Part shown: one piece after another, positions 3,478-55,907 of the stretch
How the letters are laid out: every line of letters starts with the position of its first letter
Numbering within the stretch: the first letter of the stretch is position 1
Assembly: GCF_025685425.1 (NCBI RefSeq)
Contig: NZ_JAGTAS010000028.1
Coordinates: 1 to 56,025 of the forward strand
DNA from: Terriglobus albidus
GTDB lineage: Bacteria; Acidobacteriota; Terriglobia; Terriglobales; Acidobacteriaceae
DNA: 56,025 nucleotides
Direction of reading: 5' to 3'
Position numbers and translations under genes: made by a program
The notes under the pieces: generated by a model
What the model was told of the DNA's origin: nothing
Database searches by the model: none
The model's input: the letters and a program-made list of their open reading frames with translations, nothing else

Positions 3478-4197
3478 TTGATATACGTGGCACGTAAGCA
3501 GACAGCTCCGGTCGTTCATCCCTTCGACGCAAAGTACGGTACCGAGACCGGCGGTCTTATCCCCGGACCGAAGCTCAAGACCGGCCACATGCACGACCGC
3601 CATAACACCGCCTACCACGGCACCGCACCCTCGCTCTTCGCGCAACTGATGGAGCGCTGGCAGAACACCTGGACTCCCGTTCCCCCTAGCGACTACGCCT
3701 TCGTCGATATCGGCGCCGGCAAAGGCCGTTCCTCCCTGCTGGCGGCGCGTATGCACTTCCGCAGCGTGACCGGCGTTGAATTGAACCCGCTGCTCACCAG
3801 GATCGCGCAGGAGAACATCGCCCGCTTCGCGCCCTACGCCGTTTCTCCGGTCAGCATCGTGGAGGGAGACATCATGACCCTGCCGCTCCCTGCCGGTCCG
3901 CTGCTGCTCTACCTGTTCAATCCCTTCAGCGCCACTGTACTTCGCCGCCTGTTCAAACGGCTGGACGTGCGCCAGGCCACCACTCCTACGCCGCTGGACG
4001 TTCTCTACGTAAACGACGAGCAGCGGGCCGTCCTGGTAAAACATGGCAACCTGCGCGAGCTGTGGGCCGGCGACCTGCACCTCTCCGAAGAGGATGACGA
4101 GGCCGATCGCGCCACCATCCGCCGCGACGCGCACGGTCTCTATGCCGTGGAAGGCTACGAGCGCTGCAGTATCTGGAGATGGCAGATCGACGAGTAG
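3478..4197 (+). CDS. Class I SAM-dependent methyltransferase
   Basis: A methyltransferase-like protein of about 239 residues. The SAM-binding motif I is VDIGAGKGRSSLLAA at about residues 76-90, then an acidic strand-2 end (VTGVELNP) and VEGDIMTLPLP as the adenine-contact loop. The N-terminal HPFDAKYGTETGG segment recurs in a poorly characterised methyltransferase family. The substrate is unknown. Start is uncertain: TTG at 3478 or GTG at 3487, neither with a clear ribosome site. Its TAG stop (4195-4197) forms the first bases of a 114-bp repeat element, so the repeat may have supplied the stop and the last residues may differ from relatives. Confidence 0.8.
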   Translation: MIYVARKQTAPVVHPFDAKYGTETGGLIPGPKLKTGHMHDRHNTAYHGTAPSLFAQLMERWQNTWTPVPPSDYAFVDIGAGKGRSSLLAARMHFRSVTGVELNPLLTRIAQENIARFAPYAVSPVSIVEGDIMTLPLPAGPLLLYLFNPFSATVLRRLFKRLDVRQATTPTPLDVLYVNDEQRAVLVKHGNLRELWAGDLHLSEEDDEADRATIRRDAHGLYAVEGYERCSIWRWQIDE

Positions 4198-4310
4198 AGC
4201 ATTTTCCCTGTTGCTGGGTATCCCGGAAGAGGAGTGCCGCGGCGTTTTCATTGCGGAAAACGCCCATAAGTGCGGAAGCCCTACTCTACACTTACAGGGA
4301 AAATGCTGTA
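4195..4310. repeat. 114-bp palindromic repeat, copy A
   Basis: Copy A begins TAGAGCATTTTCCCTG and ends CAGGGAAAATGCTGTA, so a TA dinucleotide borders each side, 114 bp apart. Inside is a second inverted repeat around ggcgttttcattgcggaaaacgcc. Orientation matches copy D and is opposite to B, C, E and F. The left TA is part of the methyltransferase stop codon. The remaining 33 bp before the CHAD start show nothing else. Confidence 0.85.
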
Positions 4311-4343
4311 GCCGTCCTGGCCCTTCCCGACATCTAATCCGAG

Positions 4344-5117
4344 ATGGCACGACCGATCCAGACACTTCGTGAGCAGGCCACCGCGCTGGAAGCCGCTTTA
4401 GCTGTGTGCGTGGCGCGCCCACGGAAGAAAGCCGTGCACAATCTCCGCACCTCTACCCGGCGCATTGAAGCGCAACTCGAACTGCTGATGCAGTTGAGAG
4501 ATCTACCCGCGTACCGCACAGAGGCCGCGACATTCCGGCGTACCCTGAAATCTATCCGCAAAGAGGCTGGGCAGGTGCGTGATCTGGACGTGCTGCAACA
4601 AATACTGAAGGGGCTGCATCTGCCACAGCACAACCATCGCCCGAAGCTACTCAAGGCTCTTGATAAGAGCCGTCAGAAGAGGGCCGATGATCTGAAGAAG
4701 GATCTGGAGCAACACATTCCAAAGGTTGCAAAAGCAATCGAAAAGCTCTTCACTGCACTTAAGCCCGCCGAAGAGCTCTCCCTCCCGCTCAGGCAACTTC
4801 TTCCCCTGGCCGATACCTGGTACGAGCGGCACACACGCGGCATGAAAACCGTTCGTGAAGACGATCTGCATACCATTCGCAAGATGGCCAAGGTCGCACG
4901 CTACATCGCCGAAACCGGTCTGCCGGCCAAGCAGGCTACCGCCGTGGCCGCGCGCTACAACCGCCTGCAACAGAGCGGCGGAGACTGGCACGATGCGCTG
5001 CTGCTGGCGCAAGAGGCACAGAAGAAACTCGGCAAGAAGGACCCCCTCACAAAACTGACATGTGATCGCGTAAAGGCCCATCACAACAGCTTCGTTCGCC
5101 TGCTGCGCGCGGCGTGA
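4344..5117 (+). CDS. CHAD domain-containing protein
   Basis: A 257-residue helical protein of the CHAD (conserved histidine alpha-helical domain) family, known to bind inorganic polyphosphate and often linked to triphosphate tunnel metalloenzymes. Seen in the sequence: KAVHNLRTSTRRIEAQLELL near residues 30-50 with the conserved His and Arg, KSIRKEAGQVRDLDVL at about 73-88, LHTIRKMAKVARYIAE at about 175-190, and a C-terminal KLTCDRVKAHHNSFVRLLR. The internal symmetry of two four-helix bundles is visible in these repeated H..R motifs. No CYTH partner is adjacent. Transcription may start downstream of repeat A; no clear promoter was found. Confidence 0.88.
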   Translation: MARPIQTLREQATALEAALAVCVARPRKKAVHNLRTSTRRIEAQLELLMQLRDLPAYRTEAATFRRTLKSIRKEAGQVRDLDVLQQILKGLHLPQHNHRPKLLKALDKSRQKRADDLKKDLEQHIPKVAKAIEKLFTALKPAEELSLPLRQLLPLADTWYERHTRGMKTVREDDLHTIRKMAKVARYIAETGLPAKQATAVAARYNRLQQSGGDWHDALLLAQEAQKKLGKKDPLTKLTCDRVKAHHNSFVRLLRAA

Positions 5118-5181
5118 GTGCAGCATCGCATCTCAGGAATTGTCTCTTCTTTGTTGAAGTTTTTGAGGCTCCCTTACCCAC

Positions 5182-5280
5182 CAGGGAAAATGCTCTGGCG
5201 TTGCGAGGGTGGGGCGCCCAACTATGAGTTATCGAACCTGTTGATGCACTAGCAACCAGGAACTAGCAACCAGCAACTAG
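5182..5280. repeat. Solo end of the 114-bp repeat and a 14-bp tandem repeat
   Basis: At 5182-5196 cagggaaaatgctct is an exact copy of one end of the 114-bp repeat, with no partner end nearby: a remnant. At 5248-5280 the unit actagcaaccagga is repeated with a 14-bp period about 2.3 times, and the last unit supplies the LysR stop codon (cta at 5277-5279). The region between CHAD and LysR has no other feature. Confidence 0.6.
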
Positions 5281-6170
5281 ACTTTCCCATCCGCCTCACG
5301 GATGAGCTGTTGCAGATGATGCAGTACCGTAGATTCGCGATCCGGCGACCATGCCATGACCAGGTCGATCCACGCGTTCTTCTGTTTCAGCGGACAGAAG
5401 ACAAGTCCGGTCTTCGGCAGCTCCTGCAGTGTATTTGCCGGAAGAATCGCAATGCCCTCGCCGGCCTGCACCAGAAGCACGATAGAGCTCCACACATTCG
5501 CCGTATTCACAATCTCAGGCGAGAAGCCCGCTTCGGAGCAGAGCTCGATCATCTTGTCGAACAGTGACGGGGAAGTCTCACGTGCACACATGACAAAACG
5601 CTCATGTGAGAGCGCGCGGATGTCGACGATATCTCGCGCCAGAGGATGATTCTTCGGCAGCACGGCATAGAGAGGGTCCTTACGCAGTACCTCGGACTTC
5701 AGGAAGTTGGAGTAGGGAACCTCCAGGCGCCGCGTAAAGGCGATATCGATCGTGCCTTCGGCTAATGCTTTCCATTGCAGCGCCGGAATCATCTCATGCA
5801 GCGCAATATGCACCCGCGGGTGCGACTGCCGGAAGCGCTGGATCAGCTTCGGGAAGTTCGGCCCTACCCCGCCGGTAAAGAAGCCGATGCGGATCTCACC
5901 CAGATCACCCGAGGCTGACAGCCGTGCCACCTTGATGGCTGCATCTGCACCGGAGAGCAGCTTGCGCGCCTCCTTCAGAAACAATTCTCCAGGGGCGGTG
6001 AGTACCGTCCGCAGCCGCGAACGGTCAAATAGTTGTACTCCCAGCTCCGACTCAAGATCGGCAATCTGTTCGCTGAGCGCCGACTGCGAAACATACAGAC
6101 GGCGGGCGGCGCGGGAAAAACCGCCGTAATCCGCGACAGCTACGAAGTAGCGCAGATGACGCAGTTCCAT
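5277..6170 (-). CDS. LysR family transcriptional regulator
   Basis: A 297-residue LysR-type regulator. The winged helix-turn-helix spans about residues 1-60 (MELRHLRYFVAVADYGGFSRAA, then LYVSQSALSEQIADLE). The effector-binding domain starts near residue 90 (IRIGFFTGGVGPNFPKLIQRF). Length is normal. It lies divergent to the RND efflux operon with 138 bp between starts, the classic arrangement for a LysR protein controlling its neighbour, so it is the probable regulator of the pump. The effector is unknown; a pump substrate is a reasonable guess. Confidence 0.92.
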   Translation of the reverse strand: MELRHLRYFVAVADYGGFSRAARRLYVSQSALSEQIADLESELGVQLFDRSRLRTVLTAPGELFLKEARKLLSGADAAIKVARLSASGDLGEIRIGFFTGGVGPNFPKLIQRFRQSHPRVHIALHEMIPALQWKALAEGTIDIAFTRRLEVPYSNFLKSEVLRKDPLYAVLPKNHPLARDIVDIRALSHERFVMCARETSPSLFDKMIELCSEAGFSPEIVNTANVWSSIVLLVQAGEGIAILPANTLQELPKTGLVFCPLKQKNAWIDLVMAWSPDRESTVLHHLQQLIREADGKV

Positions 6171-6181
6171 AGCATCATCTT

Positions 6182-6233
6182 ATCGGTTTTTCCGATCAAA
6201 CCCTTCGGAACAAAACGTGCGACCCTTAAGGGT
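6182..6233. promoter_or_regulatory. Candidate LysR operators between regulator and efflux operon
   Basis: Two palindromes lie in the divergent intergenic region. ATCGG-N5-CCGAT (6182-6196) is a perfect 15-bp inverted repeat whose outer A/T pairs fit the LysR-box spacing. ACCCTTAAGGGT (6222-6233) is a perfect 12-bp palindrome nearer the pump. Paired sites for recognition and activation are usual for LysR regulators. The palindromes are seen; binding is inferred. Confidence 0.45.
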
Positions 6234-6308
6234 GAAGACCAATCATTATTAGTAAGCCGTTTCCTTGCCGCGTAATCGGCCTGAGACTCTCCTTGAAGGA
6301 AGACGCCG

Positions 6309-9300
6309 ATGTGGATCGTCAAGCTTGCTCTGAATCGTCCTTATACCTTCATCGTGCTGGCGCTGCTGATTCTGCTGCTCAGCCCGGTAATGATCCTGCG
6401 CACGCCGACGGACATCTTCCCGAATATTAATATCCCGGTCGTCTCGGTGGGCTGGACGTACACCGGCCTGAATCCCGAAGAAGTAGAAGGCCGCCTCACC
6501 ACGCCCTACGAAAAGGCGTTGACCACCCTGGTCGACAACATTCAGCACATCGAGTCCACGACCTACAACGGCGGCGCGGTCGTGAAGATCTTCCTGCAGC
6601 CAGGTGCGAGTCTCGATACCGCCAACGCGCAGGTTACAGCCGCTTCACAGTATCTGTTGCGTCAGCTCCCAGCCGGTATCCTGCCCCCGGAGATTATCAA
6701 CTTCTCCGCCTCCAGCGTGCCGATTCTGCAGCTAGGCATCAGCGGTGAGGGCCTTAGCGAACAGGTTCTCAACGACAACTCCACCAACGTCATCCGTACT
6801 CAGCTCGTCACCACGCCCGGCGCCGTGATTCCCTTGCCGTTCGGCGGAAAGCAGCGCCAGATCAACATCGCCATGGACCAGGCAGCGATGCAATCCAAGG
6901 GTATTGCGCCGGGTGAGATGCTTGCGGCTCTGGCCCAGCAGAATGTCGTCACGCCGGCGGGCACCATCAAGATCGGCACCAAAGAATATGATGTCGTTCC
7001 CAATGGGGCTCCCCGCACGGTGGAAGAACTAGGTGCGCTGCCCATCAAGCAGATCAATGGAAGCACCGTCTACCTGCGCGACATCGCGACAGTCAGTGAC
7101 GGCTTCCAGGTGCAGAGCAACGTCGTTCGTCAGGACGGACATCGCGGCGTTCTGATCAGCATTCTGAAGAGCGGTGACGCTTCCACGCTCGACGTCGTGA
7201 GCGGCACCAAGAAGCTGCTGCCGCGCGTGCAGACCCTGGTTCCACCGGAGCTGAAGATCACGCCGCTGAGCGATCAGTCGATCTTCGTACGTGGCGCCGT
7301 CCAGGGTGTGATTCGTGAGGCGGTGATCGCCGCGGCTCTCACCGGCCTGATGATCCTGCTCTTCCTTGGAAGCTGGCGTTCGACGCTGATCATCGCCGTC
7401 TCGATCCCCCTGTCGATTCTGACCAGCGTCATCATTCTTGGCCTGCTGGGCGAAACCATCAACACCATGACGTTGGGCGGCCTGGCGCTCGCTGTCGGCA
7501 TCCTGGTCGACGACGCCACCGTCACTATCGAAAACATCGAACGCTTCCTCGAAGAGGGGCAAGGGCTGCACGAGTCGATCCTTGAGGGCGCAGCGCAGAT
7601 CAGTGTTCCGGCGCTGGTCTCTACCCTTTGCATCTGCATTGTGTTTCTGCCGATGTTCTTCCTCAGCGGCGTCTCGCGCTTCCTCTTCGTTCCTCTCGCT
7701 GAGGCAGTGGTCTTCGCCATGCTGGCCTCCTACGTTCTGTCGAGAACGCTGGTGCCGACCCTGGCGATGTACCTGCTGAAAGCAAAGAGCCATCACGGAC
7801 CGGCGGCGACACGCAATCCCCTGGTCCTGTTCCAGCGCGCCTTTGAACGTGGCTTTGAATGGGTACGGAACGCTTATCACGGCCTGCTGGAGACCTTTGT
7901 CGCTCACCGCAAGCTGTTTATCCCCAGCTTTCTGGGAGCATGCCTGTTGATGTTCCTGCTGATTCCTTTCCTCGGCCAGGACTTCTTCCCCTCGACCGAC
8001 AGCGGACAGTTCATCCTGCACGTACGCGCCGCCACCGGAACCCGCATTGAAGACATGGCGCGGTTGACCGATCAGGTCGAGGACCATATCCGTCAGGAGA
8101 TTCCCGCCAACGAGGTTGCCAACATTCTCGACAACATCGGCATGCCGTACAGCCAGATGAACACGCAGCATCAGACCAACGGCACCATCGGGCCCTATGA
8201 TGGCGACGTGATGGTCTCGCTCAAGGAAGACCACCACTCGACGGACCGTTATATCGCGCATCTGCGCCGCGATCTTCCGAAGCTCTTCCCAGGCACCACT
8301 TTCTACTTCCTGCCCGCCGACATCACGACGCAGATCCTGAACTTTGGTCTGCCTGCACCCATCGATATCCAGTTCGAAGGCACCGACGTAAGGACGAGCC
8401 ACGAGCTTGCTTCACAGCTAATGGATGAGCTCCGTAAAGATGTTCCCGGCCTGACGGACCTGCGTATCCAGCAGCCTTTCGACTATCCCACGCTGAAGGT
8501 GAACGTCGACCGCACCAAGGCGCTGCAGGGCGGCTATACCTCCACCGACGTCGCCACCAGTCTGCGTAATACGCTGAGCGGCAGCTTCCAGGTGAATCCG
8601 CTCTTCTTCCTGAACTGGAAGACCGGCAACCAGTATCCGCTGGTGGCGCAGACGCCGCAATACAACATGGACACCCTCGCGGCGATGCAGAACATCCCGC
8701 TCAACCGCGGCTCGCTTGGCAACGCAGCCGGACGTCAACAGGAGACTCTGAATAACGTCGCCTCCATCGAGCGCGGTACCGAGATGGGAACCATGAACCA
8801 CTACAACATCAGGCGCGTGATCGATATCTACGGCTCGGTGCAGGGCCGCGATCTCGGCTCGGTAAGCCGCGATATCGAACGCATCCTGGACCGCCAGCGC
8901 AAGACGCTGCCGCGCGGTACCTATGTCACCCTGCGCGGACAGGTGGAGACGATGAAGAGCAGTTACATCGGCCTTCTGGGCGGTCTGGCCTTCTCCATCG
9001 TGCTGGTCTATCTGCTGATCGTGGTGAACTTCCAGAGCTGGGTCGATCCGTTCATCATCATTACGGCGCTGCCCGCGGCACTGGCCGGCATTGTTCTGTT
9101 CCTCTTCCTTACGGCGACACGCCTCAGCGTTCCAGCATTGATGGGCGCCATCATGTGCATGGGCGTGGCCACCGCGAACAGTATTCTTGTGGTCAGCTTT
9201 GCCAAGCTGCGCTATGAAGATCACGGCGACGCCATCCGCGCCGCGGTAGAAGCAGGCTTCACCCGCTTCCGTCCTGTCATGATGACCGCATTGGCCATGA

Positions 9301-9506
9301 TTATAGGCATGGTGCCTATGGCGCTTGGGCTGGGAGACGGCGGTGAGCAGAATGCGCCGCTGGGCCGCGCCGTCATTGGCGGCCTGATGTGCGCCACGGT
9401 CGCCACCCTGGTCTTTGTTCCCACCGTCTTCGCGCTGATTCACGGACGCAAGCCGAGACCGACGAACGTTCCTATGACTGAGAGCGCTGAAGCGCTGCCG
9501 GCGTAA
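6309..9506 (+). CDS. RND efflux pump, inner-membrane transporter (AcrB/HAE1 type)
   Basis: A 1065-residue proton-driven RND transporter in the inner membrane that works with the adaptor and channel encoded next. Twelve membrane segments are expected: TM1 at about residues 10-30 (YTFIVLALLILLLSPVMIL), a cluster around 335-480 and another around 880-1040. The TM4 proton-relay aspartates are present in AVGILVDDATVTIENIERFL at about residue 400, and the TM10 lysine partner in SFAKLRYEDHGD at about residue 965. The large periplasmic loops are full length. Start is the ATG at 6309 with a ggaag site. Drug, metal or lipid specificity cannot be told; the VDD signature fits the hydrophobe/amphiphile branch. 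Confidence 0.93.
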   Translation: MWIVKLALNRPYTFIVLALLILLLSPVMILRTPTDIFPNINIPVVSVGWTYTGLNPEEVEGRLTTPYEKALTTLVDNIQHIESTTYNGGAVVKIFLQPGASLDTANAQVTAASQYLLRQLPAGILPPEIINFSASSVPILQLGISGEGLSEQVLNDNSTNVIRTQLVTTPGAVIPLPFGGKQRQINIAMDQAAMQSKGIAPGEMLAALAQQNVVTPAGTIKIGTKEYDVVPNGAPRTVEELGALPIKQINGSTVYLRDIATVSDGFQVQSNVVRQDGHRGVLISILKSGDASTLDVVSGTKKLLPRVQTLVPPELKITPLSDQSIFVRGAVQGVIREAVIAAALTGLMILLFLGSWRSTLIIAVSIPLSILTSVIILGLLGETINTMTLGGLALAVGILVDDATVTIENIERFLEEGQGLHESILEGAAQISVPALVSTLCICIVFLPMFFLSGVSRFLFVPLAEAVVFAMLASYVLSRTLVPTLAMYLLKAKSHHGPAATRNPLVLFQRAFERGFEWVRNAYHGLLETFVAHRKLFIPSFLGACLLMFLLIPFLGQDFFPSTDSGQFILHVRAATGTRIEDMARLTDQVEDHIRQEIPANEVANILDNIGMPYSQMNTQHQTNGTIGPYDGDVMVSLKEDHHSTDRYIAHLRRDLPKLFPGTTFYFLPADITTQILNFGLPAPIDIQFEGTDVRTSHELASQLMDELRKDVPGLTDLRIQQPFDYPTLKVNVDRTKALQGGYTSTDVATSLRNTLSGSFQVNPLFFLNWKTGNQYPLVAQTPQYNMDTLAAMQNIPLNRGSLGNAAGRQQETLNNVASIERGTEMGTMNHYNIRRVIDIYGSVQGRDLGSVSRDIERILDRQRKTLPRGTYVTLRGQVETMKSSYIGLLGGLAFSIVLVYLLIVVNFQSWVDPFIIITALPAALAGIVLFLFLTATRLSVPALMGAIMCMGVATANSILVVSFAKLRYEDHGDAIRAAVEAGFTRFRPVMMTALAMIIGMVPMALGLGDGGEQNAPLGRAVIGGLMCATVATLVFVPTVFALIHGRKPRPTNVPMTESAEALPA

Positions 9507-9520
9507 CGGAGAAAGAGATT

Positions 9521-12156: not shown

Positions 12157-12196
12157 AGCTGGGTGCCCCATATCTCGGCCCGCCGAGATGTGGGCA

Positions 12197-12224: not shown

Positions 12225-12233
12225 GTGCGCTCG

Positions 12234-12265: not shown

Positions 12266-12303
12266 CGGGAAACGTGCAGCTCGGAATCATCATCGAACCA
12301 CCT

Positions 12304-13974: not shown

Positions 13975-14455
13975 CTATGGTGTGCGGTAATTGGGTGGGG
14001 AGCATCGGGGTCCCCGACCTACGGAAAGTCAAGCGCTGAAGGCGCGTTCTATACCAGCCTGGGGCAACGCCCCAGGTTTTGGCGCCCACAAGACGGAGGA
14101 GGGCTGAAGGCCCGCCCTATATAAGTGCCTTCAATCCGACCGTATCGTTTCGATAGGTACAACGGCTTCACGAACCGCTTCGTTTATGAAGACTGGGGAT
14201 TATAGATCGGGCCTTCAGCCCTCTTACCGTTTTCCTATCTCAGTACCTGGGGCGTTGCCCCAGGCTGGTATAGGTCGCGCCTTCAGCGCTCAAACATCTT
14301 TCTTTCGCATAAGGAATGGGCTTTTAAAGCCCAACTTCTCGTGTATCCGGCAACCGTGGGCTGAAGCATGGCTTTAGCCCACGGCTCCCACCTGATTCAA
14401 GCCATGCCTCATGCAGTGGATATTTCACACCCTCTTAGAGCGGATTGGATGACAC
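13975..14455. other. Gene-free, hairpin-rich intergenic region
   Basis: No coding sequence is supportable in these 481 bases. Contents: a gtggggagcatcggggtccccg motif at 13995-14016 shared in reverse with 270-290; the 241-bp inverted repeat listed separately; a near-perfect 17-bp palindrome tgggcttttaaagccca at 14317-14333; and a ccgtgggct/agcccacgg hairpin at 14354-14384. It lies between the convergent trehalase and NIPSNAP genes. Confidence 0.7.
14041..14281. repeat. 241-bp inverted repeat with 36-bp arms
   Basis: The outer arms, 14041-14076 and 14246-14281, are 36 bp and complementary at 34 positions. Inside, a perfect 15-bp pair (14100-14114 with 14208-14222, agggctgaaggcccg) continues the stem. 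Each outer arm itself holds a perfect 8-bp hairpin, cctggggc/gccccagg with an AAC loop. The structure could fold as a large hairpin in RNA or a cruciform in DNA. Confidence 0.85.
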
Positions 14456-23366: not shown

Positions 23367-23482
23367 CGCAGCATTTTCCCTGGAGGTGTAGTCCAGAGCA
23401 TCCGCCCCTGATGGGCGTTTTCCTCAATGAAAACGCCGCTGCACGCCCCTTCCGGGATATCCAGCAACAGGGAAATGCTCTT
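23367..23482. repeat. 114-bp palindromic repeat, copy B
   Basis: Reads gcattttccctgg at the left (from 23371) and cagggaaatgctc at the right (to 23480), opposite orientation to copies A and D. Ends are not TA-bounded. The right end touches the trpF stop codon (tta at 23481-23483). It fills the gap between the convergent haem c-HhH and trpF genes. Confidence 0.85.
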
Positions 23483-33479: not shown

Positions 33480-33665
33480 CTCAGGGACATAGGTGGTTCG
33501 CGCGAAGCGAATCAGGTGGGAGCCGTGGGCTTTCAGCCTACGATCTATCAACTCAATATAGAAATGGGCTTTTACCCCTGGGCTTTCCTGTCAGACAAAG
33601 AAGGCCCAGGGCTAAAGCCCATTATTTTTACTGCTTTATCAGCGGGCTGAAGCCCGCTGCTCCCA
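33480..33665. repeat. Intergenic hairpin repeat block (gggctgaagcccgctgctcccacc type)
   Basis: The 320-bp gap 33437-33756 holds no gene. It contains gtgggagc ... gctcccac outer arms around cgtgggctttcagcctacg, aatgggctttta and cccagggctaaagcccatt, then gcgggctgaagcccgc as a perfect hairpin. It shares motifs with the blocks at 120-345 and 14300-14400. Confidence 0.65.
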
Positions 33666-38468: not shown

Positions 38469-38580
38469 TGGAGCATTTTCCCTGCAGGTGTAGAGTAGTT
38501 CCGCATCTATGGCGTTTTCCGCAATGAAAACGCCGTTGCGCTCCTCTTCCTGAATACCCAGCAACAGGGAAAATGCTCTG
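38469..38580. repeat. 114-bp palindromic repeat, copy C
   Basis: Starts TGGAGCATTTTCCCTG and ends CAGGGAAAATGCTCTG, so TG rather than TA borders both sides 110 bp apart. Orientation as copies B, E and F. It lies just upstream of the GHL6-like gene and could affect its promoter. Confidence 0.85.
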
Positions 38581-43736: not shown

Positions 43737-43813
43737 CTAGAACAACTCTCCTGGAGATGTAGAGCGAAGCCTTGGCACTTTGCGCCGTTTTCCTGCGATG
43801 AAAACGGCCTTAG
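43737..43813. repeat. Diverged, truncated copy of the 114-bp repeat
   Basis: Begins ctagaacaactctcctggag and keeps the central cgttttcctgcgatgaaaacg inverted repeat, but the right end is lost where copy D begins. Orientation as copies B, C, E and F. Confidence 0.6.
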
Positions 43814-43819
43814 CAGATT

Positions 43820-43934
43820 TAGAGCATTTTCCCTGTTGCTGGGTATCCCGGAAGAGGAGTGCAGCGGCGTTTTCATTGCGGAAACGCCCATAGATGCGGA
43901 GGCTCTGGACTACGCCTACAGGGAAAATGCTCTT
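43820..43934. repeat. 114-bp palindromic repeat, copy D
   Basis: Starts TAGAGCATTTTCCCTG and ends CAGGGAAAATGCTCTT. Same orientation as copy A, with the central gcgttttcattgcggaaacgc intact. The left border has TA, the right has TT. Confidence 0.85.
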
Positions 43935-44250
43935 TCCAGAGCTTCGGCAGGCGGCTTCCAGTGTGCAAAAGTCCTCTCACCACGTCTATCAATGCGAATA
44001 AAGCGGCCGGCCGGAACTCTGTGGATATGCTGGAAGGCGCTCCACCCGGTGGCTTCAAACGGGGCACGAGGAGTGATCTCCAGAATCTGTAACAAGCCTT
44101 CCTCGTTCACTTCGGCCGGACCTCATCTAGAGTGAGGAGTCACTCCGGCTCGATCAACGCGATTGTTAACCGAGCTTGCAAGCCCATAAAGCAGCGGGAC
44201 GTTCGGACCGAGATGGGTGGACGGGATCGGTATCAGGAGAATTGCTCTAG

Positions 44251-44266: not shown

Positions 44267-44318
44267 GCCTCCCCGACGGCTCAGCATCAACCTGTAGATG
44301 CTGCACGATGGGGTCCAT

Positions 44319-47300: not shown

Positions 47301-47477
47301 ACCAGCGCCCTGGCGGTTCAGATCCTGAAGGACCTGGCTCCAACCTTACAGCCCTTGATCTCCGATCACCCCGGAGTAAAGCGCCCGGCATTGTCCGAGA
47401 AGTCCCTGCCGGTGACGTTGAACAACGCTGGCGACGCGCTTATAGGCCGCGTGCCCAAAAGACCGGTTTCTTCATAG
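44319..47477 (+). CDS. Atypical class A penicillin-binding protein (transglycosylase/transpeptidase)
   Basis: A 1052-residue bifunctional peptidoglycan synthase with one membrane anchor near residue 40 (GAAAILLLGTGLLVEM). The GT51 domain has LLFIENRHM (catalytic Glu about 180; ENR replaces the usual EDR) and GGSTLATQLEKL at about 220. The transpeptidase has STAK with Ser514, SVN with Ser620 and KTG with Lys939. The gap between SxN and KTG, about 320 residues, is far longer than usual and holds a helical insert (FRSTRPQADFFAF, HPLELWLMAYLQQHPG). ATG at 44319 has gatgggg 5 bp upstream; ATG at 44298 is an alternative. The 3' end overlaps the convergent acyl-CoA ligase by 38 bp. Confidence 0.85.
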   Translation: MGSSPADHSLSQNFAILKPRAEAPNQKSFHWARMGAAAILLLGTGLLVEMELRFSWIESRLFAAEASKMGYKLAAGPSGSIRFPDAGPYDLKYGYSNLPAYLNRLHGEHFNIEEQARVSSSFLLWTHLGAYPIYHEKSQAGLDIVDERGESLYSFRDPRRAYGDFTSIPPLVVQTLLFIENRHMLTDKEPDRNPAIEWDRLAHATFDFGLHKMDRHHSVIGGSTLATQLEKLRHSPAGRTHSPAEKLRQITSATLRSYQDGRQTLGAQRTVIRDYINSIPLSSTPEHGEVTGLADGLAVWYGANFDAVNRLLAASEDASAPQQMQERARAYRQVLSLFLALRKPSIYLAGNPDALAAQTDRYLRALCKAGVISSQLRDASLRERVSLTPPMHVRRAGDFVANKAANAVRAQLLGLLGIEKSYELDRLDLNVQTTIDQRVQQSVTRFFQQLANPENARRAGLDEDRLLSAGDPSQVIYSFTLYERGDGVNLLRAQSDNFNQPLSIVDGTRLQLGSTAKLRTLISYLQIIESLHGLYSALTPSQLAAVSVLPGDRLTEWALQYLSTAQDRTLKTMLEAALNRQYSGNPGEVFFTAGGRHVFANFERPENNRAFTVRDAFEQSVNLVFIRLMRDIEGYYKWRLPGVSPSILSDPQDPARQTYLKRFADQDGSVFLRRFYEKYRGLDTDQALEKLIKGIKPTPVRVAVIFRSTRPQADFFAFSAFMNRHVASSLLSNHKLEKLYADHARGKFNLSDCGYLAHVHPLELWLMAYLQQHPGTSLSQVIAQSAPERQEVYRWLFRAKMRHGQDVRISILLEQDAFHEIWRDWKRLGYPFDSLVPSYATSIGVSGDTPRALAELAGIIANGGIRYPEETIHQLTFAHNTPMETNLAFRAAGGEAVLSPVVAGLAHEAMLGVVRNGTGRRALRAFALPDGKYVPVAGKTGTGDNRFKTFAKGKDVVSERAVNRTAAFVFIIGDRLFGTVMAFVPGESASSYKFTSALAVQILKDLAPTLQPLISDHPGVKRPALSEKSLPVTLNNAGDALIGRVPKRPVSS

Positions 47478-49131
47478 CAATCCAGCCATCCACATGGGGG
47501 GCGTACCGCTTCTCGAGTGCATCCCGCTTGAGCTTGAGAGTCGGCGTGATCAAACCGCTCGCGATGTCCCAGGGCCCATCGACGAGCGCCAGAAAGGAGA
47601 GCCGCTCGTGGGGGTCGAGCTCCGCGTTGATGTGAGTGAGCAGTTTTTCGAGCTCCTGGCCGAGTTCGCCATTTAGTCCGCCGCTCTCGCACTGCTTACG
47701 CGCTTCCGCAGAGAGCACGGAGATCGCAAAGGGATGTGCGCGGCCATCACCCATGACACATGTGGCCTCGAGAGCGGGGTGAAGGGCAAAGCGCTTTTCG
47801 ATCGGTACGGGTAAGACGTATTTGCCATTATTGGTCTTGAATTGCTCCTTGATGCGGCCAACGATCTTCAGCTGCCCATCGGGAGCTATCTCTCCTTTAT
47901 CGCCGGTACGGAAGAAGCCATCCGCCGTGAAGCACTCGCGCGTTGCTTCCTCATCGCGGTAGTAGCCAATCATGTTCATCGCACTGCGCATCTGAATCTC
48001 TTCGTCAGGACCGATGCGTACTTCGACGCCGGGCAGTGCGGGGCCGACGTATCCCATGCGAAAGTTGGCTGGTCTGGGTGCGTGGGTGATGCCGGTCTCC
48101 GTGAGGCCATAGCCTTCGACAAGAGTGAGCCCGACACTGCGATACCAGGCGAGGACCTCGCTCGGCAGCGCAGCCCCACCTGAAGCAGCCAGGCGCACGT
48201 GGGCCAGCCCGAGCTGGCGCAGGATCTTCCGCTTCACATAGCTGCTGAGGATAGGGATGCGGAGCAGGCGATTGAGTCTGGGTTGCGGCACTTTCTCCAG
48301 TACGCCCTGACGGAGGTGCAGATACAGCAGTGGCACAGAGAAGAAGACCGTAGGGCGGGCGCGTTTGAGAGCTGCGAGGAAGCTATTCCGCCCTGCGGTG
48401 AAGTAGACGGTACAACCGATGTGCAGGCTGGTAGCCTCAATGGCGCCGCGCTCGGCGATATGTGCCAGCGGCAGATACGAGATGAACCGCTCATTGCTGT
48501 CCATATTGACCAGCGCGGCGATGGTGCTGCCCATCTGCGGGAAGAGGGAGAAGCGATGCATCACACCCTTGGGCTGATCGGTGGTACCGGCGGTGTAGAT
48601 GATGGTGGCCAGTTCATCGGCCCTGCGGGTGGGCGAGTCCGAGATCGGCGCGCATTCGGTGAGTATCTCGTCCCAGCGGCGGTCACAGCCGCGGAGCACC
48701 TCAGGCGCAGCGTTGGGCATAGCGATACGCAGCACTCCTCCTGGAAGGCCCTGCTGCATAGCCTCACGGTCGTCCATGGCGCCGAGGAAACAGGCGCGGA
48801 CATCGGCGTACTGCAGAAGGGCGTGGATGGACTCCGCGCGGAGCGATGGATAGAGAGGCACGGTGACCATGCCGGCCATCCATGCGCCCAGCTCGGCGAT
48901 GATCCACCAGGCACTGTTTCGGGCCAGCGTAGCCACGCGTGCGCCAGGCTCCCAGCCTTGCGAGCGCAAGAAGGCTGCGATACGGCGCGCCTCGTCCATG
49001 GTCTGCTGCCAGGTCCAGGAGCGGATGCTGCCCTCGCTCATGGGCTGGACGAGATAAACCTCCGCGGCACGGACGTGTTCCCAGTGGTAGGCCCGCCCAA
49101 GCGGGAGAAGATCATCGCCGAACTGCGCCAT
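47440..49131 (-). CDS. fadD: Long-chain acyl-CoA synthetase (AMP-dependent ligase)
   Basis: A 563-residue ANL-superfamily enzyme that activates fatty acids to acyl-CoA. The phosphate-binding loop is IIYTAGTTDQPKGVMHRF at about residues 177-194, the adenine motif is GYGLTETG at about 338, and RTGDKGEIAPDGQLKIVGRIKEQF with the hinge is at about 415. The C-terminal FFRTGD ... KRDALEKRY matches long-chain (FACL) members. It is divergent from the TetR gene and the beta-oxidation operon it presumably feeds. Its 3' end overlaps the PBP gene by 38 bp. Gene symbol by role; chain-length preference is not known. Confidence 0.9.
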   Translation of the reverse strand: MAQFGDDLLPLGRAYHWEHVRAAEVYLVQPMSEGSIRSWTWQQTMDEARRIAAFLRSQGWEPGARVATLARNSAWWIIAELGAWMAGMVTVPLYPSLRAESIHALLQYADVRACFLGAMDDREAMQQGLPGGVLRIAMPNAAPEVLRGCDRRWDEILTECAPISDSPTRRADELATIIYTAGTTDQPKGVMHRFSLFPQMGSTIAALVNMDSNERFISYLPLAHIAERGAIEATSLHIGCTVYFTAGRNSFLAALKRARPTVFFSVPLLYLHLRQGVLEKVPQPRLNRLLRIPILSSYVKRKILRQLGLAHVRLAASGGAALPSEVLAWYRSVGLTLVEGYGLTETGITHAPRPANFRMGYVGPALPGVEVRIGPDEEIQMRSAMNMIGYYRDEEATRECFTADGFFRTGDKGEIAPDGQLKIVGRIKEQFKTNNGKYVLPVPIEKRFALHPALEATCVMGDGRAHPFAISVLSAEARKQCESGGLNGELGQELEKLLTHINAELDPHERLSFLALVDGPWDIASGLITPTLKLKRDALEKRYAPHVDGWIAMKKPVFWARGL

Positions 49132-49158
49132 CCAGGTACCCTCCGTGTGCGGTCAGCG

Positions 49159-49198
49159 CTTTGTTCGTTCGGCTGTAACCTGGCCCGAACCTACAAAG
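49159..49198. promoter_or_regulatory. Candidate TetR-family operator between fadD and the tetR gene
   Basis: Inverted repeat with 14-bp arms: ctttgttcgttcgg (49159-49172) and ccgaacctacaaag (49185-49198), 12 of 14 positions complementary, 12-bp spacer. It starts 28 bp upstream of the ligase ATG. The core gttcgg-N12-ccgaac is perfect. Either an operator for the adjacent TetR regulator or a leader hairpin. Confidence 0.5.
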
Positions 49199-49346
49199 TG
49201 AAAGGCCCTCTTACTCCGGTAAATTTGCACCCCAAATTTCGCTTGCGCAATCCAAGCGAGAGCGCGTAGAACGGGTGCTGCAAATCCGACCGGCGAGTAA
49301 GATATCAACCGGAAGGGGCAGTGTCAATTGCTGCCGGGGTGAAACG

Positions 49347-50027
49347 ATGCCCAAACAGTCCGCAGCCTTACGGCCGCATCGACAGTTGTTCGCTGACCGC
49401 AGACGCAATCCGGACGCGAAGCGGGAGGCCGTGCTCCACACGGCTGTTCGCATATTCCTCGAGCGCTCCTACGCGCGCACGTCGATGAATGACGTAGCGA
49501 CGCAGTTGAATATCACAAAACCGGCGCTCTACCACTACTTCCGCAACAAGGAAGAGATCCTGGTGGAGATTTACCGGCTGGGGACGGACCTGATCGACGA
49601 GATGCTGGATTCGATCGAAGCCGATGAAAAAACCGGACTGGACAAGGTAGCAGACTTTATCGCCGGCTACACCCGGATCATTGCCGGGGACTTTGGCCGG
49701 GCGGTTGTCCGGCTGGATGACGGAGAGTTATCGAAGGCTGGCCGCAAGCTGGTGCGCGCCCGCAAGCGCGAGATCGACCATCGATTGCGAGCCCTTATCG
49801 AAAGCGGCATTGAGGACGGCTCCATTGCCTCCTGCGATGCAAAGATTGCGGCCTTCATTCTGGCCGGGGCCATTCACGGAATGGCCAGTTGGTATGAGCC
49901 TGCCGGGTCAATGGACCTGGCCGATATCACCGCGCAATACGTTCGGATGCTGGCGGCGGGGCTGGCGATGGGAGGCCTGCCGGCGTTGGCCGAGCGCCAG
50001 CCAATTGCGCCACGTCGCTTTGAGTAG
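49347..50027 (+). CDS. TetR family regulator of beta-oxidation genes
   Basis: A 226-residue TetR-type repressor. The helix-turn-helix is at about residues 33-65 (SMNDVATQLNITKPALYHYF, then RNKEEIL). The C-terminal ligand domain resembles those of acyl-CoA-responsive TetR regulators (IAGYTRIIAGDFGRAVVRLDD, AAFILAGAIHGMASWY). The ATG at 49347 has ggggtga upstream; a frame back to 49275 adds non-conserved residues. It is the first gene of the beta-oxidation operon (12 bp from the next gene) and divergent from the acyl-CoA ligase, so it most likely represses both and is released by fatty acyl-CoA, by analogy with FadR of Bacillus. Confidence 0.88.
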   Translation: MPKQSAALRPHRQLFADRRRNPDAKREAVLHTAVRIFLERSYARTSMNDVATQLNITKPALYHYFRNKEEILVEIYRLGTDLIDEMLDSIEADEKTGLDKVADFIAGYTRIIAGDFGRAVVRLDDGELSKAGRKLVRARKREIDHRLRALIESGIEDGSIASCDAKIAAFILAGAIHGMASWYEPAGSMDLADITAQYVRMLAAGLAMGGLPALAERQPIAPRRFE

Positions 50028-50039
50028 AGGACTGCACGC

Positions 50040-52532
50040 ATGGAATCAAACGAGGCGAGCATGGGATCTGTTGCTGAGCAGGAAGTGAAGACGACCAAGG
50101 TCGAACGGCCACTGCTGTTGCGCAAGGCTGCCGTCCTGGGTGCGGGGACAATGGGATCGAGGATTGCGGCGCAGCTGGCCAATGTAGGTCTGAATGTCCT
50201 GCTCCTGGATCTGCCAAGCAGCGATCTGCCAAGCAGCGATCTGCCGAGCAGCGAGGCTGGCCGAAACGCTGTTGCCGACAAGGCACTCGAGGCGCTCAAG
50301 AAGAGCAAGCCGGCTGCGTTCTACACACCCAGCGCCGCCATGCGCATCCAGACGGGCAACTTCGAGGATGACCTGGCCCAACTCGCCGAGTACGACTGGA
50401 TCGTCGAGGCGGTAACGGAGAACCTGGAGATCAAGCAACAACTACTGGCGCGCGTAGCACCGCACGTGCAGCCGCATGCCTTCCTCACCACCAATACCAG
50501 CGGCATCCCGGTTGCTTCGATTGCCAGCGTGCTGCCTCCCGAACTAAGCCGCCGGTGGTTTGGCACACACTTCTTCAATCCGCCACGTTATATGCGGCTG
50601 GTGGAGGTGGTTCCAGGACCGGCTACCGACCCGGCGGCCATGGCCGCACTCTCCGTCTTCCTCGACCAGAACCTCGGCAAAGAGGTGGTCCGGGCACGGG
50701 ACACGCCGAACTTCATCGCGAACCGCATCGGCATCTTCTTCATCCTGGAAACGCTGCGCGTGATGCGGGAAGAGGACCTGAACGTTGAGGAGGTAGACGC
50801 CCTGACCGGCACCGCCATCGGCCTGCCGCGCACCGGCACCTTCCGGCTGGCAGACATGGTCGGGCTGGACATCCTGGCGCACGTGGCGCGAAACTTCGCG
50901 CAAGCCCGCACCGATGCCGGCGGACAGGCGGCGCTGCCACCCTTCCTGGAAACCATGCTTGAGCGCAAGTGGCTGGGCGACAAGACAGGTGGAGGCTTCT
51001 ACAAGAAAGAGCGAGGCGCGGACGGGAAAGAGGTGCGCTTCGTTCTCGACCTAAAGACGCTGGAATACCAGCCGGCGTCGAAGCCCAGATTTCCGGCGCT
51101 GGATATGGCGAAAAACGTGGAGTCGCTGCCGGAGCGGCTGCGGATGCTGTTATCCGGCGACCAGAAGAAGGACAAGGCGGCGCGCTTCCACTGGAAGCTG
51201 CTGACGCGGCTTTGGAACTACTCCGCCGATTGCCTGCCTGAGATTGCAGACTCCGCGGCCAACATCGATGCAGCGATGCGCGCCGGCTACAACTGGCAAC
51301 TTGGCCCGTTCGAGATGTGGGATGCGGCCGGCGTAGCGGAGACAGTCGCCCGCATGCGGGCAGCGGGCGAGCCTATCAGCCCGGTTATCGAGGCGATGCT
51401 GGCCAGCGGGGCAAAGACCTGGTATGCCGACAATGGCGCCGCCTGTTATGACCTGGCGACAAGACGTTATCAAACGGTGGCGCGGCCTGCGGGCATTGCC
51501 CGCATCGCTAGCTTCCGCGCCAGCAACGGGGTCGTGCGTGCGAACCCGGGCGCATCGCTCATCGACCTCGGCGACGGCGTCGGGTGCATCGAGCTGCACT
51601 CGACGAAGAGCACGATGGGTGATGACATCATGCGGCTGATCACAAAAACACTTGAGCCCTCGTCGGAGTTCGTGCGCGACTTCCGCGCCTTTGTGATCTC
51701 CAGCGATGCGGAGAATTTCTCGGTTGGTGCAAATCTGATGCAGCTGCTGCTTGCCGCCCAGGAAGGCGAATGGGAGGACATCGACCTGACGGTTCGCGCC
51801 TTCCAGCGCATGACACAGTCAATCAAGTTCTGCCCGCGGCCAGTGGTGGTTGCGCCCTACGCATTGTGCCTGGGGGGCGGGACGGAGATCTCGCTGCACG
51901 GCGCACGGCGGCAGGCACATGCCGAACTGTATATGGGGCTGGTAGAGACCGGTGTCGGCCTGATTCCCGGTGGCGGAGGCACCAAGGAGTTCGCGCTGAA
52001 GGCGACGGATGAGGCAATTCGCGCCTTCGGCGATGCATCCCGCGTCGCGATCTCAACCGAGATCGTAGACACCATGAAGCAGGCCTTCGAGACGATCGCG
52101 ATGGCAAAGGTCTCCACCTCTGCGGCCGAAGCGCGATCGCTGAACCTGTTGACTGAAGAAGACGGCATCACGCTGAACCGCGAGCGGCTGCTGCTGGAGG
52201 CAAAAAACGCCGCTCTTGCCCTGGCGGACGCCGGCCATCTGCCGCCGGTGATGCGCTCCGGGATTCCCGCTGCGGGCGAGAGCGTACGCGCGACGCTCCG
52301 GTTGGGGGCATACATCATGCAGCAGTCCGGTTACGCGAGCGAACACGACGTGAAGGTGGCCGGGCACGTTGCGCATATTCTGTGCGGCGGCAGCGTCGCA
52401 CCCGGAACGCGCGTAAGTGAGCAGTATTACCTGGATCTGGAGCGCGAGGCCTTCCTCTCGCTTTGCGGCGAGCGCAAGACGCAGGAACGCATCGCCTACA
52501 CGTTGAGCAACGGCAAACCCCTGAGGAACTAG
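50040..52532 (+). CDS. fadN: 3-hydroxyacyl-CoA dehydrogenase / enoyl-CoA hydratase fusion (FadN type)
   Basis: An 830-residue bifunctional beta-oxidation enzyme. The NAD-binding HAD half is N-terminal ([21 protein letters not shown] at about residues 30-50, [18 protein letters not shown] at about 176), and the crotonase half is C-terminal ([29 protein letters not shown] at about 602, [12 protein letters not shown]). This order is that of Bacillus FadN, opposite to Escherichia coli FadB. Residues 57-71 hold three DLPSS units (the fold usually has one acidic turn there). It starts 12 bp after the TetR gene and is followed by the thiolase 2 bp later. Confidence 0.92.
50208..50252 (+). repeat. 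Tandem 15-bp in-frame repeat inside fadN
   Basis: Three consecutive 15-bp units: gatctgccaagcagc twice, then gatctgccgagcagc. Two are identical and the third differs at one base. They encode DLPSS three times, extending the loop after beta-strand 2 of the NAD-binding domain. The near identity suggests recent slippage. Confidence 0.9.
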
Positions 52533-52534
52533 TT

Positions 52535-53719
52535 ATGCAGGAAGCAATGATTGTCAGCAGCGTCCGTACACCGGTCGGCAAGGCAGGGCGAGGCAGCCTG
52601 GCTACAACGCGGCCGGATGACCTGGCGGCCACCGCGATTGAGGGCGCATTCGCGCGCGTGCCGCAGCTAGACAAAAGCGAAGTGGATGACGTCGTCCTGG
52701 GCTGCGCGCATCCCGAAGCAGAACAGGGCATGAACGTGGCGCGAATCGCGAGCCTGCGTGCTGGTCTGCCGGTGGAGGCCTCGGCGATGACGGTGAACCG
52801 CTTCTGCGCATCGGGCCTGCAGGCGATTGCGCAGGCAGCAGATCGTATCCGCGGCGGTGGCGCATCGGTGGTCGTGGCCGGCGGCACGGAGTCGATGAGC
52901 ATGATCCCTATGGGTGGTCACAAGATCAGCGCCAACCCATGGCTGGTTGACAATATGCCCGCCGCCTATCTCTCGATGGGATTGACAGCGGAGCGGGTGA
53001 GCGAGCGATTCCATATCAGCCGCGAGGACGCTGATAGCTTCGCGCTGGCCAGTCATCAGAAGGCCTTGAAGGCGATCGCTGAAGGATGCTTCACCGACGA
53101 GATCGTGCCGGTGGAATGGATCGAACGCACACCGAAAGCGGGCTCTGCAAAGCCGGTAGAACAGAAGCGCAGCTTCCAGATCGACGAAGGGCCGCGCGCC
53201 GATACCTCCGCTGAGGCGCTGGCCAAACTGAAGCCGGTCTTCCATGTGAAGGGCACGGTGACGGCGGGCAATTCGTCGCAGACCTCCGATGGCGCGGCGG
53301 CCACCATTGTGACCAGCGCGGAACGAGCGGCCGCCTTGGGCATGAAGCCGATGGCACGTTTCGTCGCCTTTGCTACCGCGGGTTGCGCTCCGGAGGTGAT
53401 GGGAATCGGACCGGTACATGCCGTGCCGAAGGCGCTCAAGATCGCTGGCCTGAAACTGGAGGACATTGGCCTGGTGGAGTTGAACGAGGCCTTCGCCGCA
53501 CAGGCGCTCGCGGTCATTCGGGAACTTGGTCTCGATCCGGCGAAGGTAAACGTGAATGGCGGCGCGATCGCATTGGGACATCCGCTGGGCTGCACCGGTG
53601 CGAAGCTGACCGCCACATTGCTGCATGAGATGCAGCGCCGCAAGGTGCGCTATGGCCTGGTGACGATGTGCGTGGGCGGCGGGATGGGTGCAGCAGGCAT
53701 CTTCGAGAATCTGAACTGA
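52535..53719 (+). CDS. fadA: Acetyl-CoA acyltransferase (thiolase)
   Basis: A 394-residue thiolase completing the beta-oxidation cycle by releasing acetyl-CoA. The active-site cysteine is in [20 protein letters not shown] at about residue 90, the histidine in [17 protein letters not shown] at about 349, and the second cysteine in [17 protein letters not shown] at the C-terminus. The start is the ATG at 52535, only 2 bp after the fadN stop, so translation is likely coupled. A frame from 52463 overlaps fadN and is a shadow. Confidence 0.93.
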
Positions 53720-53743
53720 TTTGTTAGAGACAGGAGCGGCTTG

Positions 53744-55561
53744 ATGACAACGCCGGCATCACAACCCACTACGACGGTCAAAGCCGCTGCTGGCGGCAGC
53801 TTTCTGCTCGAGGAGCGCACACCACAAGAGGTCTTTACACCCGAGGACTTCAACGACGAACAGCGGCTGATCGCCGAGACCGCCTCGAACTTTGCACAGA
53901 AGGAGGTTCTCCCGGCAGCCGGCGCGATCGAGGCGAAGGACTATAAGGTGACACGCGGGCTGCTGGCGAAGGCCGGCGAACTGGGACTGATGGCCACCGA
54001 CACGCCGGAGGAGTATGGCGGCCTTGCGATGGACAAGGTAACGTCGGCCATTGTGGGGGAGAAGCTCTCTGTGCTGGGCAGTTTTGCCGTTACCTTCAGC
54101 GCACACGTGGGCATCGGCATGCTGCCCATCATCTGGTACGGCACTCCGGAGCAAAAGCAGAAGTATCTGCCGAAGCTGGCGACCGGCGAGTGGGTGGGGG
54201 CTTACGCCCTCTCTGAGGCATCCTCCGGCTCAGACGCGATGGGCCTGCGTACACGCGCCGTGCTCTCCCCGGATGGGCAACATTACGTCGTGAACGGCGA
54301 AAAGATGTGGACCACCAATGCAGGCTTCGCGGATCTCTTCACCGTCTTCGCAAAGGTGGACGGCGAGAAGTTCACTGCCTTTCTGATCGAGCGCAATACG
54401 CCCGGCTTTTCCGTCGGCAAAGAGGAGCACAAGCTGGGCATCCGCGGCTCCTCCACCTGTCCACTGATCCTGATCGATTGCAAAGTCCCGGTGGCCAACC
54501 TGCTGGGCGAATTGGGTAAGGGACACCACATCGCATTCAACATCCTGAATATCGGCCGTTTCAAGCTGGGCGCAAGCGCGATTGGCGCCGCAAAGAATTC
54601 ACTTGCAAATGCGGTGCGCTATGCCAAAGAACGCAAGGCCTTCGGCAAGGCCATCGGCGAGTTCGGCTTGATCCAGCAGAAGCTGGCTGAAAGCGCGACC
54701 GGCATTTTCGTGGGCGAGAGCATGGCCTATCGCACCATCGGCATGATCGATGCGGCACTGAGCTCGCTCGAAGGCAACAAGGCGCATGACCCGCAGGAGA
54801 TCCAGAAGAAGGTCGAAGAGTATGTGGTTGAATGCTCCATCCTCAAGGTATGGGGATCCGAGATGCTGGACATGGTGGTGGACCATACGATGCAGATTTA
54901 CGGTGGCTACGGTTACGTCGAGGAGTATCCGGCAGAGCGTGCGTATCGCGACTCGCGCATCAATCGCATCTTCGAGGGCACGAACGAGATCAACCGGCTG
55001 ATCATCACCGGATGGCTGATGAAGCGTGCGGCGAGTGGACAGCTGCCGCTGCTGAACGCGATCAAGACGTTGATGGCAGAGGCGATGGAACCGCCCTCCC
55101 TCGACGCCAGCGACGATACCGATGACCCATTGAGAACCGAGGCAGCGTTGCTTGCGAATTTGAAGAAGACGGCCCTCTTCTGCTCTGGCTCAGCGACGCA
55201 GAAGTACCTGCACGCACTGCAGGATCAGCAGGAGATCATGGGTGATCTGGCGGACATGACGATGCAGGTCTTCGCGCTGGAATCAGCGCTGCTACGAGCA
55301 CGCAAGCTGGCGTCGCAACCCCAGGCCCAAGAGTCGCAATCCCAGACTGCGCACGCGATGCTGAAGCTCTTCGCAGCCGATGCGCTTGCGGTGGTCGAAA
55401 AGGCCGCGCGACGCGTGCTGGCCGCTGTTGCCGAGGGTGACACGTTGCGCACCCAGCTCGCTATCCTGCGACGGCTGCTGAAACATACACCAGAGGACAC
55501 CATCGCGCTGAGCCGCGCTGTGGCACAGCGGCAGCTCGAGGCGTGTGGCTACAAACTCTGA
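53744..55561 (+). CDS. fadE: Acyl-CoA dehydrogenase
   Basis: A 605-residue FAD enzyme for the first step of beta-oxidation. N-terminal FTPEDFNDEQRLIAETASNFAQKEV, central GAYALSEASSGSDAMGLRTRA (FAD/substrate), VNGEKMWTTNAG, and the catalytic-base region MQIYGGYGYVEEYPAERAYRD with RIFEGTNEINRLIITGWLMK at about 410-430. It has a C-terminal extension of some 180 residues typical of the Bacillus FadE/very-long-chain type. An aggag site 7 bp upstream favours the ATG at 53744. Last gene of the tetR-fadN-fadA-fadE operon. Bases 55562-55675 after it show nothing. Confidence 0.92.
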   Translation: MTTPASQPTTTVKAAAGGSFLLEERTPQEVFTPEDFNDEQRLIAETASNFAQKEVLPAAGAIEAKDYKVTRGLLAKAGELGLMATDTPEEYGGLAMDKVTSAIVGEKLSVLGSFAVTFSAHVGIGMLPIIWYGTPEQKQKYLPKLATGEWVGAYALSEASSGSDAMGLRTRAVLSPDGQHYVVNGEKMWTTNAGFADLFTVFAKVDGEKFTAFLIERNTPGFSVGKEEHKLGIRGSSTCPLILIDCKVPVANLLGELGKGHHIAFNILNIGRFKLGASAIGAAKNSLANAVRYAKERKAFGKAIGEFGLIQQKLAESATGIFVGESMAYRTIGMIDAALSSLEGNKAHDPQEIQKKVEEYVVECSILKVWGSEMLDMVVDHTMQIYGGYGYVEEYPAERAYRDSRINRIFEGTNEINRLIITGWLMKRAASGQLPLLNAIKTLMAEAMEPPSLDASDDTDDPLRTEAALLANLKKTALFCSGSATQKYLHALQDQQEIMGDLADMTMQVFALESALLRARKLASQPQAQESQSQTAHAMLKLFAADALAVVEKAARRVLAAVAEGDTLRTQLAILRRLLKHTPEDTIALSRAVAQRQLEACGYKL

Positions 55562-55675
55562 ATGAGAGTATCTTGCCAGGCGATCACATCTGCCCACGGT
55601 ACTGAAAATTCCGGGAATGTAGTATCCGGCCAACAGTACGGCCCTGGGATAAATCGCGAGTCATGGACTTGCCCG

Positions 55676-55793
55676 CTAGAGCATTTTCCCTGCAGGTGTA
55701 GTCCAGGGCATCCGCATCTATGGGTGTTTTCCGCAATGAAAACGCCGCTCCACTCCCCTTCCGGGATACCCAGCAACGGGGAAAATGCTCTAG
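55676..55793. repeat. 114-bp palindromic repeat, copy E
   Basis: Begins CTAGAGCATTTTCCCTG and ends GGGGAAAATGCTCTAG. The CTAG at 55790-55793 is shared with copy F. TA-to-TA spacing is 114 bp, as in copy A. Confidence 0.9.
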
Positions 55794-55907
55794 AGCATCT
55801 TCCCTGCAGGTGTAGTCCAGGGCATCCGCATCTATGGGTGTTTTCCGCAATCAAAACGCCGCTGCACGCCTCTTCCGGGAAACCCGGCAACAGTGAACAT
55901 GCTCTAG
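55790..55907. repeat. 114-bp palindromic repeat, copy F
   Basis: Begins CTAGAGCATCTTCCCTG and ends CAGTGAACATGCTCTAG, tandem to copy E in the same orientation. Most of the sequence is shared with E, with differences concentrated at the right end. The final CTAG (55904-55907) is the junction with the IS630-type element. Confidence 0.9.

Follow-up and report, generated by a model that had tools for sequence, protein, structure and literature searches.

A gene-less, MITE-like palindrome of Acidobacteriaceae with a directional target and an excess of insertions at stop codons

The closest known kind of element to the one analyzed here is the palindromic MITE, such as ERIC and RUP. ERIC/IRU/RU-1, a 127-bp repeat of enterobacteria, is likewise described in the cited excerpts as a gene-less palindrome of more than 100 nt with terminal TA and a TA duplication; it occurs in about 30 to 711 copies depending on the species, and its mode of transfer had not been demonstrated at the time of these papers (PMC2229807, PMC2759123, PMC10969869). 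Excerpts of two of these accounts report open frames in ERIC and no demonstrated mobiliser for ERIC-type palindromic MITEs (PMC2229807, PMC2759123). The present element differs from ERIC in sequence and phylum, and a directional target and landing on stop codons are absent from these excerpts of the ERIC accounts. RUP of Streptococcus pneumoniae (107 bp) is similar in size, is present in about a hundred copies and also targets TA, but its ends are described as resembling IS630-Spn1 (PMC2229807), whereas no such partner was found for our element. The Correia/NEMIS repeats of Neisseria, excerpted as 107-155 bp repeats with stem-loop transcripts (PMC2229807), are unlike it in sequence. REP/BIME repeats with their RAYT (Y1) genes are extragenic palindromes as well, and tandem arrays and Y1 genes occur here too; REPs, however, are given as 20-40 bp in the excerpt (PMC3733652), and the Y1 locus L019 carries REP-like repeats of its own. 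A full-text literature search returned, in the passages it covered, no description of this element family, of directional MITE insertion or of stop-codon targeting.

The window, a 56,025-nt stretch of a Terriglobus albidus contig, carries all six full copies listed by the initial annotation. The 114-bp unit proposed there corresponds to the spacing of the repeats, that is a 112-nt element plus one dinucleotide. Copy A (4195..4310, plus strand) reads TA, 112 nt, TA, and an ORF of 239 codons (3478-4197) uses the left TAG as its stop codon; the site of copy A is also filled in the sister species G002 (L075). Copies E (55677..55792, minus) and F (55791..55906, minus) stand head to tail. Each of A, E and F has TA at both borders, as annotated, with one TA common to E and F. 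A 92% alignment between window positions 47439-55792 and a sister-species contig (G012:C504) extends through copy E. Copy D (43820..43934, plus) has TA on one side only, again as annotated, with left TA and right TT. Copies B and C had been listed as lacking TA; C (38469..38580, minus), read in element orientation, is in fact flanked by CA at either end (TG/TG on the plus strand), and B (23367..23480, minus) has a left end 1 nt shorter. Copy B is absent from the orthologous stretch of G002, where the junction is ambiguous. A diverged copy had been placed at 43737 and is recovered only as a weak partial profile match adjoining D (43739..43807, minus; 19.9 bits, E 4e-4). One of the two solo ends holds up as an exact 14-nt relic (5182..5195, minus), while the other (44234..44247, minus) has three mismatches and is alone not above chance.

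The palindromic element is 112 nt long, counting the outer G and C of the consensus, and has ends GAGCATTTTCCCTG/CAGGGAAAATGCTC, each bordered by a target dinucleotide that in most cases is TA. It is built of a 14-bp terminal inverted repeat, an internal hairpin and subterminal sequences that are unlike on the two sides (TTGNTGGG-like on the left, CTACACCTA-like on the right). Element plus TA amounts to 114 nt, or 38 codons, and the consensus is open in two plus-strand frames and one minus-strand frame. The window's genome (G000; 6.10 Mb, 58 contigs) contains 269 exact 14-nt ends (134 plus, 135 minus; none for the reversed control), and the 16-nt end with at most one mismatch is found 450 times there and 290 times in the sister species G002, again with no reversed match in either genome. 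Within the window, the 14-nt end with up to three mismatches occurs 16 times against 5.3 expected, a count reached in none of 100 shuffles. We estimate the genomic copy number in G000 at roughly two hundred. The element is thus short, gene-less, bounded by terminal inverted repeats and dispersed in many copies, as is a MITE. Ends lacking the usual next base were found at 24 places, of which 18 are ordinary copies and six are solo ends, fragments or shortened hairpins. We also observe very short derivatives (about 35-51 nt) that retain both ends (L037 282-316, L188 17672-17722 and L116 about 1501-1534) and may be internal deletions that are still mobile.

Copies were compared in a G000 sample of 0.854 Mb picked for known end matches (138 hits, 115 near full length, 92 with clear ends; slightly laxer ends give 98, or 77 after removal of 21 array-linked copies) and in G002 stretches that partly overlap and total 1.64 Mb (138 copies after de-duplication of 139 hits, 114 near full length, 94 clean). 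The 112 G000 copies whose ends could be used have a median identity of 92% to the consensus. By their orthologous flanks, 32 of the 115 near-full-length copies from G000 could be located in G002 stretches, and 20 of the 114 from G002 in G000 stretches, with scripted calls of 22 and 8 empty, 9 and 8 occupied, and 1 and 4 other, respectively. Inspection by eye of the 30 scripted empties left 15 clean single copies, six array members with fewer units in the other species, and nine decayed or ambiguous sites. In all 15 clean comparisons the empty allele has a single TA and the filled allele has the element between two dinucleotides, the left one always TA and the right one TA in 10, TG in three and CA in two. 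This check, which the initial annotation had proposed, bears out its view of the repeat as a non-autonomous mobile palindrome, and its MITE reading with a 2-bp target duplication is supported.

Across 171 clean copies from both genomes, the borders are TA/TA in 98, left TA only in 40, right TA only in 19 and neither in 14. TA is preferred, and eight of the 14 copies without TA carry another dinucleotide that is identical at the two borders (CA in five; GA, TT and AA in one each). Such matching borders are predicted by a 2-bp duplication and so support it; in this test, devised post hoc after seeing the data, a permutation gives a mean of 3.3 (p=0.0012), and a null inside the 14 gives a mean of 4.0 (p=0.006). 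None of these 14 copies is common to both species, and the median profile score of copies without TA borders, pooled from two profiles, is not below that of TA/TA copies. We further note more copies without a right TA than without a left one (40:19, p=0.009; 37:16 without shared sites), an imbalance of 22:7 in G000 and of 18:12 in G002, where it is not significant on its own. Where the right TA is missing, CA or TG mostly stands in its place, including in species-specific insertions, and the imbalance is not predicted by simple decay of a duplication. A 4-bp duplication (CTAG/GTAG), suggested by copies A, E and F, was rejected, as the left -4 base equals the right +1 base in 33 of 92 copies, with about 30 expected by a hand calculation.

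The target is asymmetric, with a consensus TYTA|KCG that is biased on both sides of the dinucleotide. For TA/TA copies, a pyrimidine precedes the left TA in 37 of 42 cases (G000) and 49 of 56 (G002); at the corresponding place just beyond the right TA, a purine occurs in 21 and 29 of these copies, respectively. Because TA is its own reverse complement, the genomic background cannot yield such a directional asymmetry. A matrix of five plus five flanking bases was trained on 64 G000 sites, using left-TA copies only, and applied to the 74 left-TA copies of G002 minus nine sites shared with G000. Sixty of the remaining 65 sites fit the matrix better in element orientation and five in reverse (p=5e-13), and the split is 30 versus 3 at sites where no edge coincides with the end of a 50-codon ORF. 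The element thus enters its target mostly in one orientation, a statistical result that holds in two sister species, which suggests that its two ends are distinguished at insertion. The preference is not significant in other genera, where 11 of 18 copies fit better in element orientation and seven in reverse.

Gene ends are frequent landing sites. Since both ends begin with G after the TA, landing on TAA or TAG leaves TAG. When targets were reconstructed by rejoining the flanks and genes were called by a simple ORF and GC3 rule, 42 of 138 sites (about 30%), including sites common to both species, fell on stop codons, 69 in noncoding and 27 in coding DNA; the gene reaches the right border in 27 of the stop-codon sites and the left border in 15. 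Stops make up 37.8% of stop plus noncoding sites against a motif-weighted expectation of 11.0% (p=2e-13), and they outnumber sites in the first 60 nt downstream of stops by 36:16 (expected share 0.41, p=5e-5). Both results persist when 20 same-site-like copies among the 171 are dropped and the expectations of the full set are reused, with 35 of 121 sites at stops (36.1%, p=8e-11) and a ratio of 31:12 to the 60 nt downstream (p=4e-5). The size of the excess is approximate, as the gene caller is crude and called window copy A 'coding' from an antisense ORF. This local excess is not produced by selection against gene insertion alone.

The G000 sample also contains twelve arrays (nine of two copies, two of three and one of four), eleven of them arranged head to tail and one, in which copy D of the window has its weak partner, arranged otherwise. 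Nine of them have a junction TA(G/A/none)(T/C)CGCATTTTCCC that differs from the ordinary left end, while the junction of the E-F array in the window is ordinary. The G002 sample has three head-to-tail pairs with ordinary or near-ordinary junctions, plus one nested insertion. The G000 arrays may be read as dimers that spread as units or grow by recombination.

Taken together, the element is probably a gene-less MITE mobilised in trans by a DDE-type enzyme that makes a 2-bp staggered cut at an asymmetric target, with stop codons serving as safe harbours. A transposase acting on both ends would move the element in trans, cutting with a 2-bp stagger, usually at TA, so that gap repair would double the dinucleotide. 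Asymmetric reading of the target would give the single element orientation, and restoration of TAG upon landing on a stop would make gene ends safe harbours. The enzyme would resemble IS630/Tc1 in its chemistry, including the stagger, rather than be any IS630 located in the carriers, and the mobiliser itself may be lost, rare or of an unrecognised family. Against this reading, directionality is unusual for a DDE target and the orientation preference in other genera is not significant. We put forward more tentatively, as a doubtful but possible extension, that a transposase, acting alone or in complex with an end-specific partner, reads an asymmetric target and so inserts in one orientation, prefers stop codons and restores them. 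If true, this would represent directional, gene-end-seeking transposition, a mode that we do not know for TA-duplicating elements. Because about two hundred copies can be compared with a sister genome that is complete, empty sites are clean and the target is sharp, directional and stop-biased, both the mobiliser and the cause of gene-end targeting are directly testable here.

Plain IS630/Tc1 elements have a symmetric TA target and no orientation preference. The initial annotation had suggested an IS630-type MITE as a possibility. By such an origin an internally deleted IS630 would keep its GAGCATTTTCCC-type ends and insert symmetrically at TA, and the TA borders, single-TA empty sites, short inverted ends, 112-nt length and matching non-TA borders are all consistent with it. 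The directional target (60:5) and a search for the parent argue the other way; the IS630 assignment is not supported, and we consider this origin unlikely. A PF13358 (DDE_3) profile search (E up to 0.001) of 16 genomes, 12 of them with paired copies, gave matches in five of the latter (G000, G002, G015, G194 and G157) and none in the other seven (G012, G322, G388, G390, G142, G325 and G134). Including the four genomes with one to three end-like hits only (G422, G374, G168 and G392), of which G422 and G392 match PF13358, nine of the 16 give no match. When the element ends were compared with those of the IS630 loci, as the annotation had suggested, none of the 12 PF13358 loci, drawn from all seven genomes with matches, was bounded by element ends within the fetched flanks, where a single 3-mismatch match was found; resident IS630 copies were thus rejected as parents, their ends being different. 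PF01609 (IS4/IS5-type) has no match in G000, and none of its 15 matches in G002 is bounded by element ends, an ordinary copy lying in the flank of one of them (L100). In 2.49 Mb of stretches from G000 and G002, well under half of the two, no transposase was recognised between end pairs. Five candidate pairs lie 0.5-6 kb apart, of which two were read: in L184, host genes lie between two separate copies, and no ORF of L221 is recognisable as a transposase. The remaining three fall within L033 and L050, where ordinary copies are present.

The asymmetric target also fits two routes other than a DDE enzyme. IS200/IS605 or RAYT (Y1) elements make no target duplication and have an element-encoded right end. 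A single-strand HUH/Y1 enzyme of this kind would insert 3' of TYTA, with the right TA borne by the element, and the resemblance of the left-flank TYTA to the element's right end TCTA, the strong palindrome and ten Y1-domain matches in G000 are in its favor. We regard it as distinctly unlikely, because non-TA borders match on both sides, copies with similar interiors do not significantly share the right dinucleotide (p 0.06-0.26), replication-strand bias is not significant (67:47, p=0.075 in G002; none in G000) and none of the ten Y1 loci has inward-facing element ends on its two sides. The boundaries of the IS200-type copies L011 and L012 are likewise other than element ends. IS110-like elements combine a cognate recombinase with a guide RNA. 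An RNA-guided or site-specific recombinase of this type, using TA as a core dinucleotide with guides perhaps carried by the folded element or its RNA, would agree with the bias flanking the dinucleotide on both sides, the fixed orientation and the stable fold; the perfect terminal inverted repeats and matching non-TA borders make it very improbable. The Y1 and RNA-guided routes thus account for direction and not for the matching borders. Least of all do we expect the repeat to be a conserved structured RNA or a signal at gene ends (3' UTR element) without mobility. Its gene-end location and stable fold (z -3.5 to -5.3 on three strands tested) would suit such a role, as would two-sided changes in 6 of 23 pairs (shuffled mean 1.8; 5 when slid by +1) in an alignment of 24 copies, including 18 of the 19 relatives' paired elements described below and excluding an 83-nt copy. 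Across these 24, 94.3% of the cells of two stems pair, compared with 91.8% when shuffled and 41-62% when slid, the number of pair types is not above that of shuffles, and the RNAalifold covariation energy is almost zero. Any element with matched ends shows covariation of its ends, so that only the inner stem (three pairs) could indicate structure, and the covariation evidence is weak. No Rfam family exceeds the threshold at a copy, 'drum' (RF02958) overlapping one copy far below it. Clean empty sites and the nested insertion refute RNA as a sole explanation, though the element may have a secondary role at mRNA ends.

The distribution of the element is patchy. Among 18 relatives of the same genus, exact 14-nt ends number more than 100 in three and are absent from 15, and single 14-mer matches in G032 and G058 were set aside as being at about chance level (hand estimate with uniform bases). 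In a public genome collection, which may leave out the window's own genome, an internal 42-mer matches four stretches from two MAGs, one named as an Acidobacteria and the other as an Acidobacteriaceae bacterium. Paired ends are also present, in low copy number, in four further genera of the family, as a search of 399 genomes of the class shows. Seventeen of 20 stretches fetched from relatives contain 19 paired elements from eight genomes, 18 of them 114-117 nt including the dinucleotides and one of 83 nt (G142). These relatives keep the ends, the inner stem and the distinct left and right subterminal parts, and some have end variants of their own that are altered on both arms (CCCTA/TAGGG, CCCCG/CGGGG). 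We read the family as a MITE-like, gene-less palindromic element of Acidobacteriaceae.

Other palindromic sequences were observed alongside these copies. The orthologue of copy A in G002 contains a second palindromic insert of about 260 nt (L075 about 1763-2026) with inverted ends near GAGGGTGTGTCATCAAACTC. In the window, two matches to the Acido-Lenti-1 RNA (RF01687) at 14032-14077 and 14245-14290 are inverted, 167 nt apart and 96% complementary, and may represent a pair of mobile palindromes and not an RNA gene. At 153-246 and 33521-33627, inverted repeats that have diverged and bear GTGGGCTTTCAGCC/TGGGCTTTAGCC motifs are possibly REP-like palindromes of Y1 (RAYT) genes.
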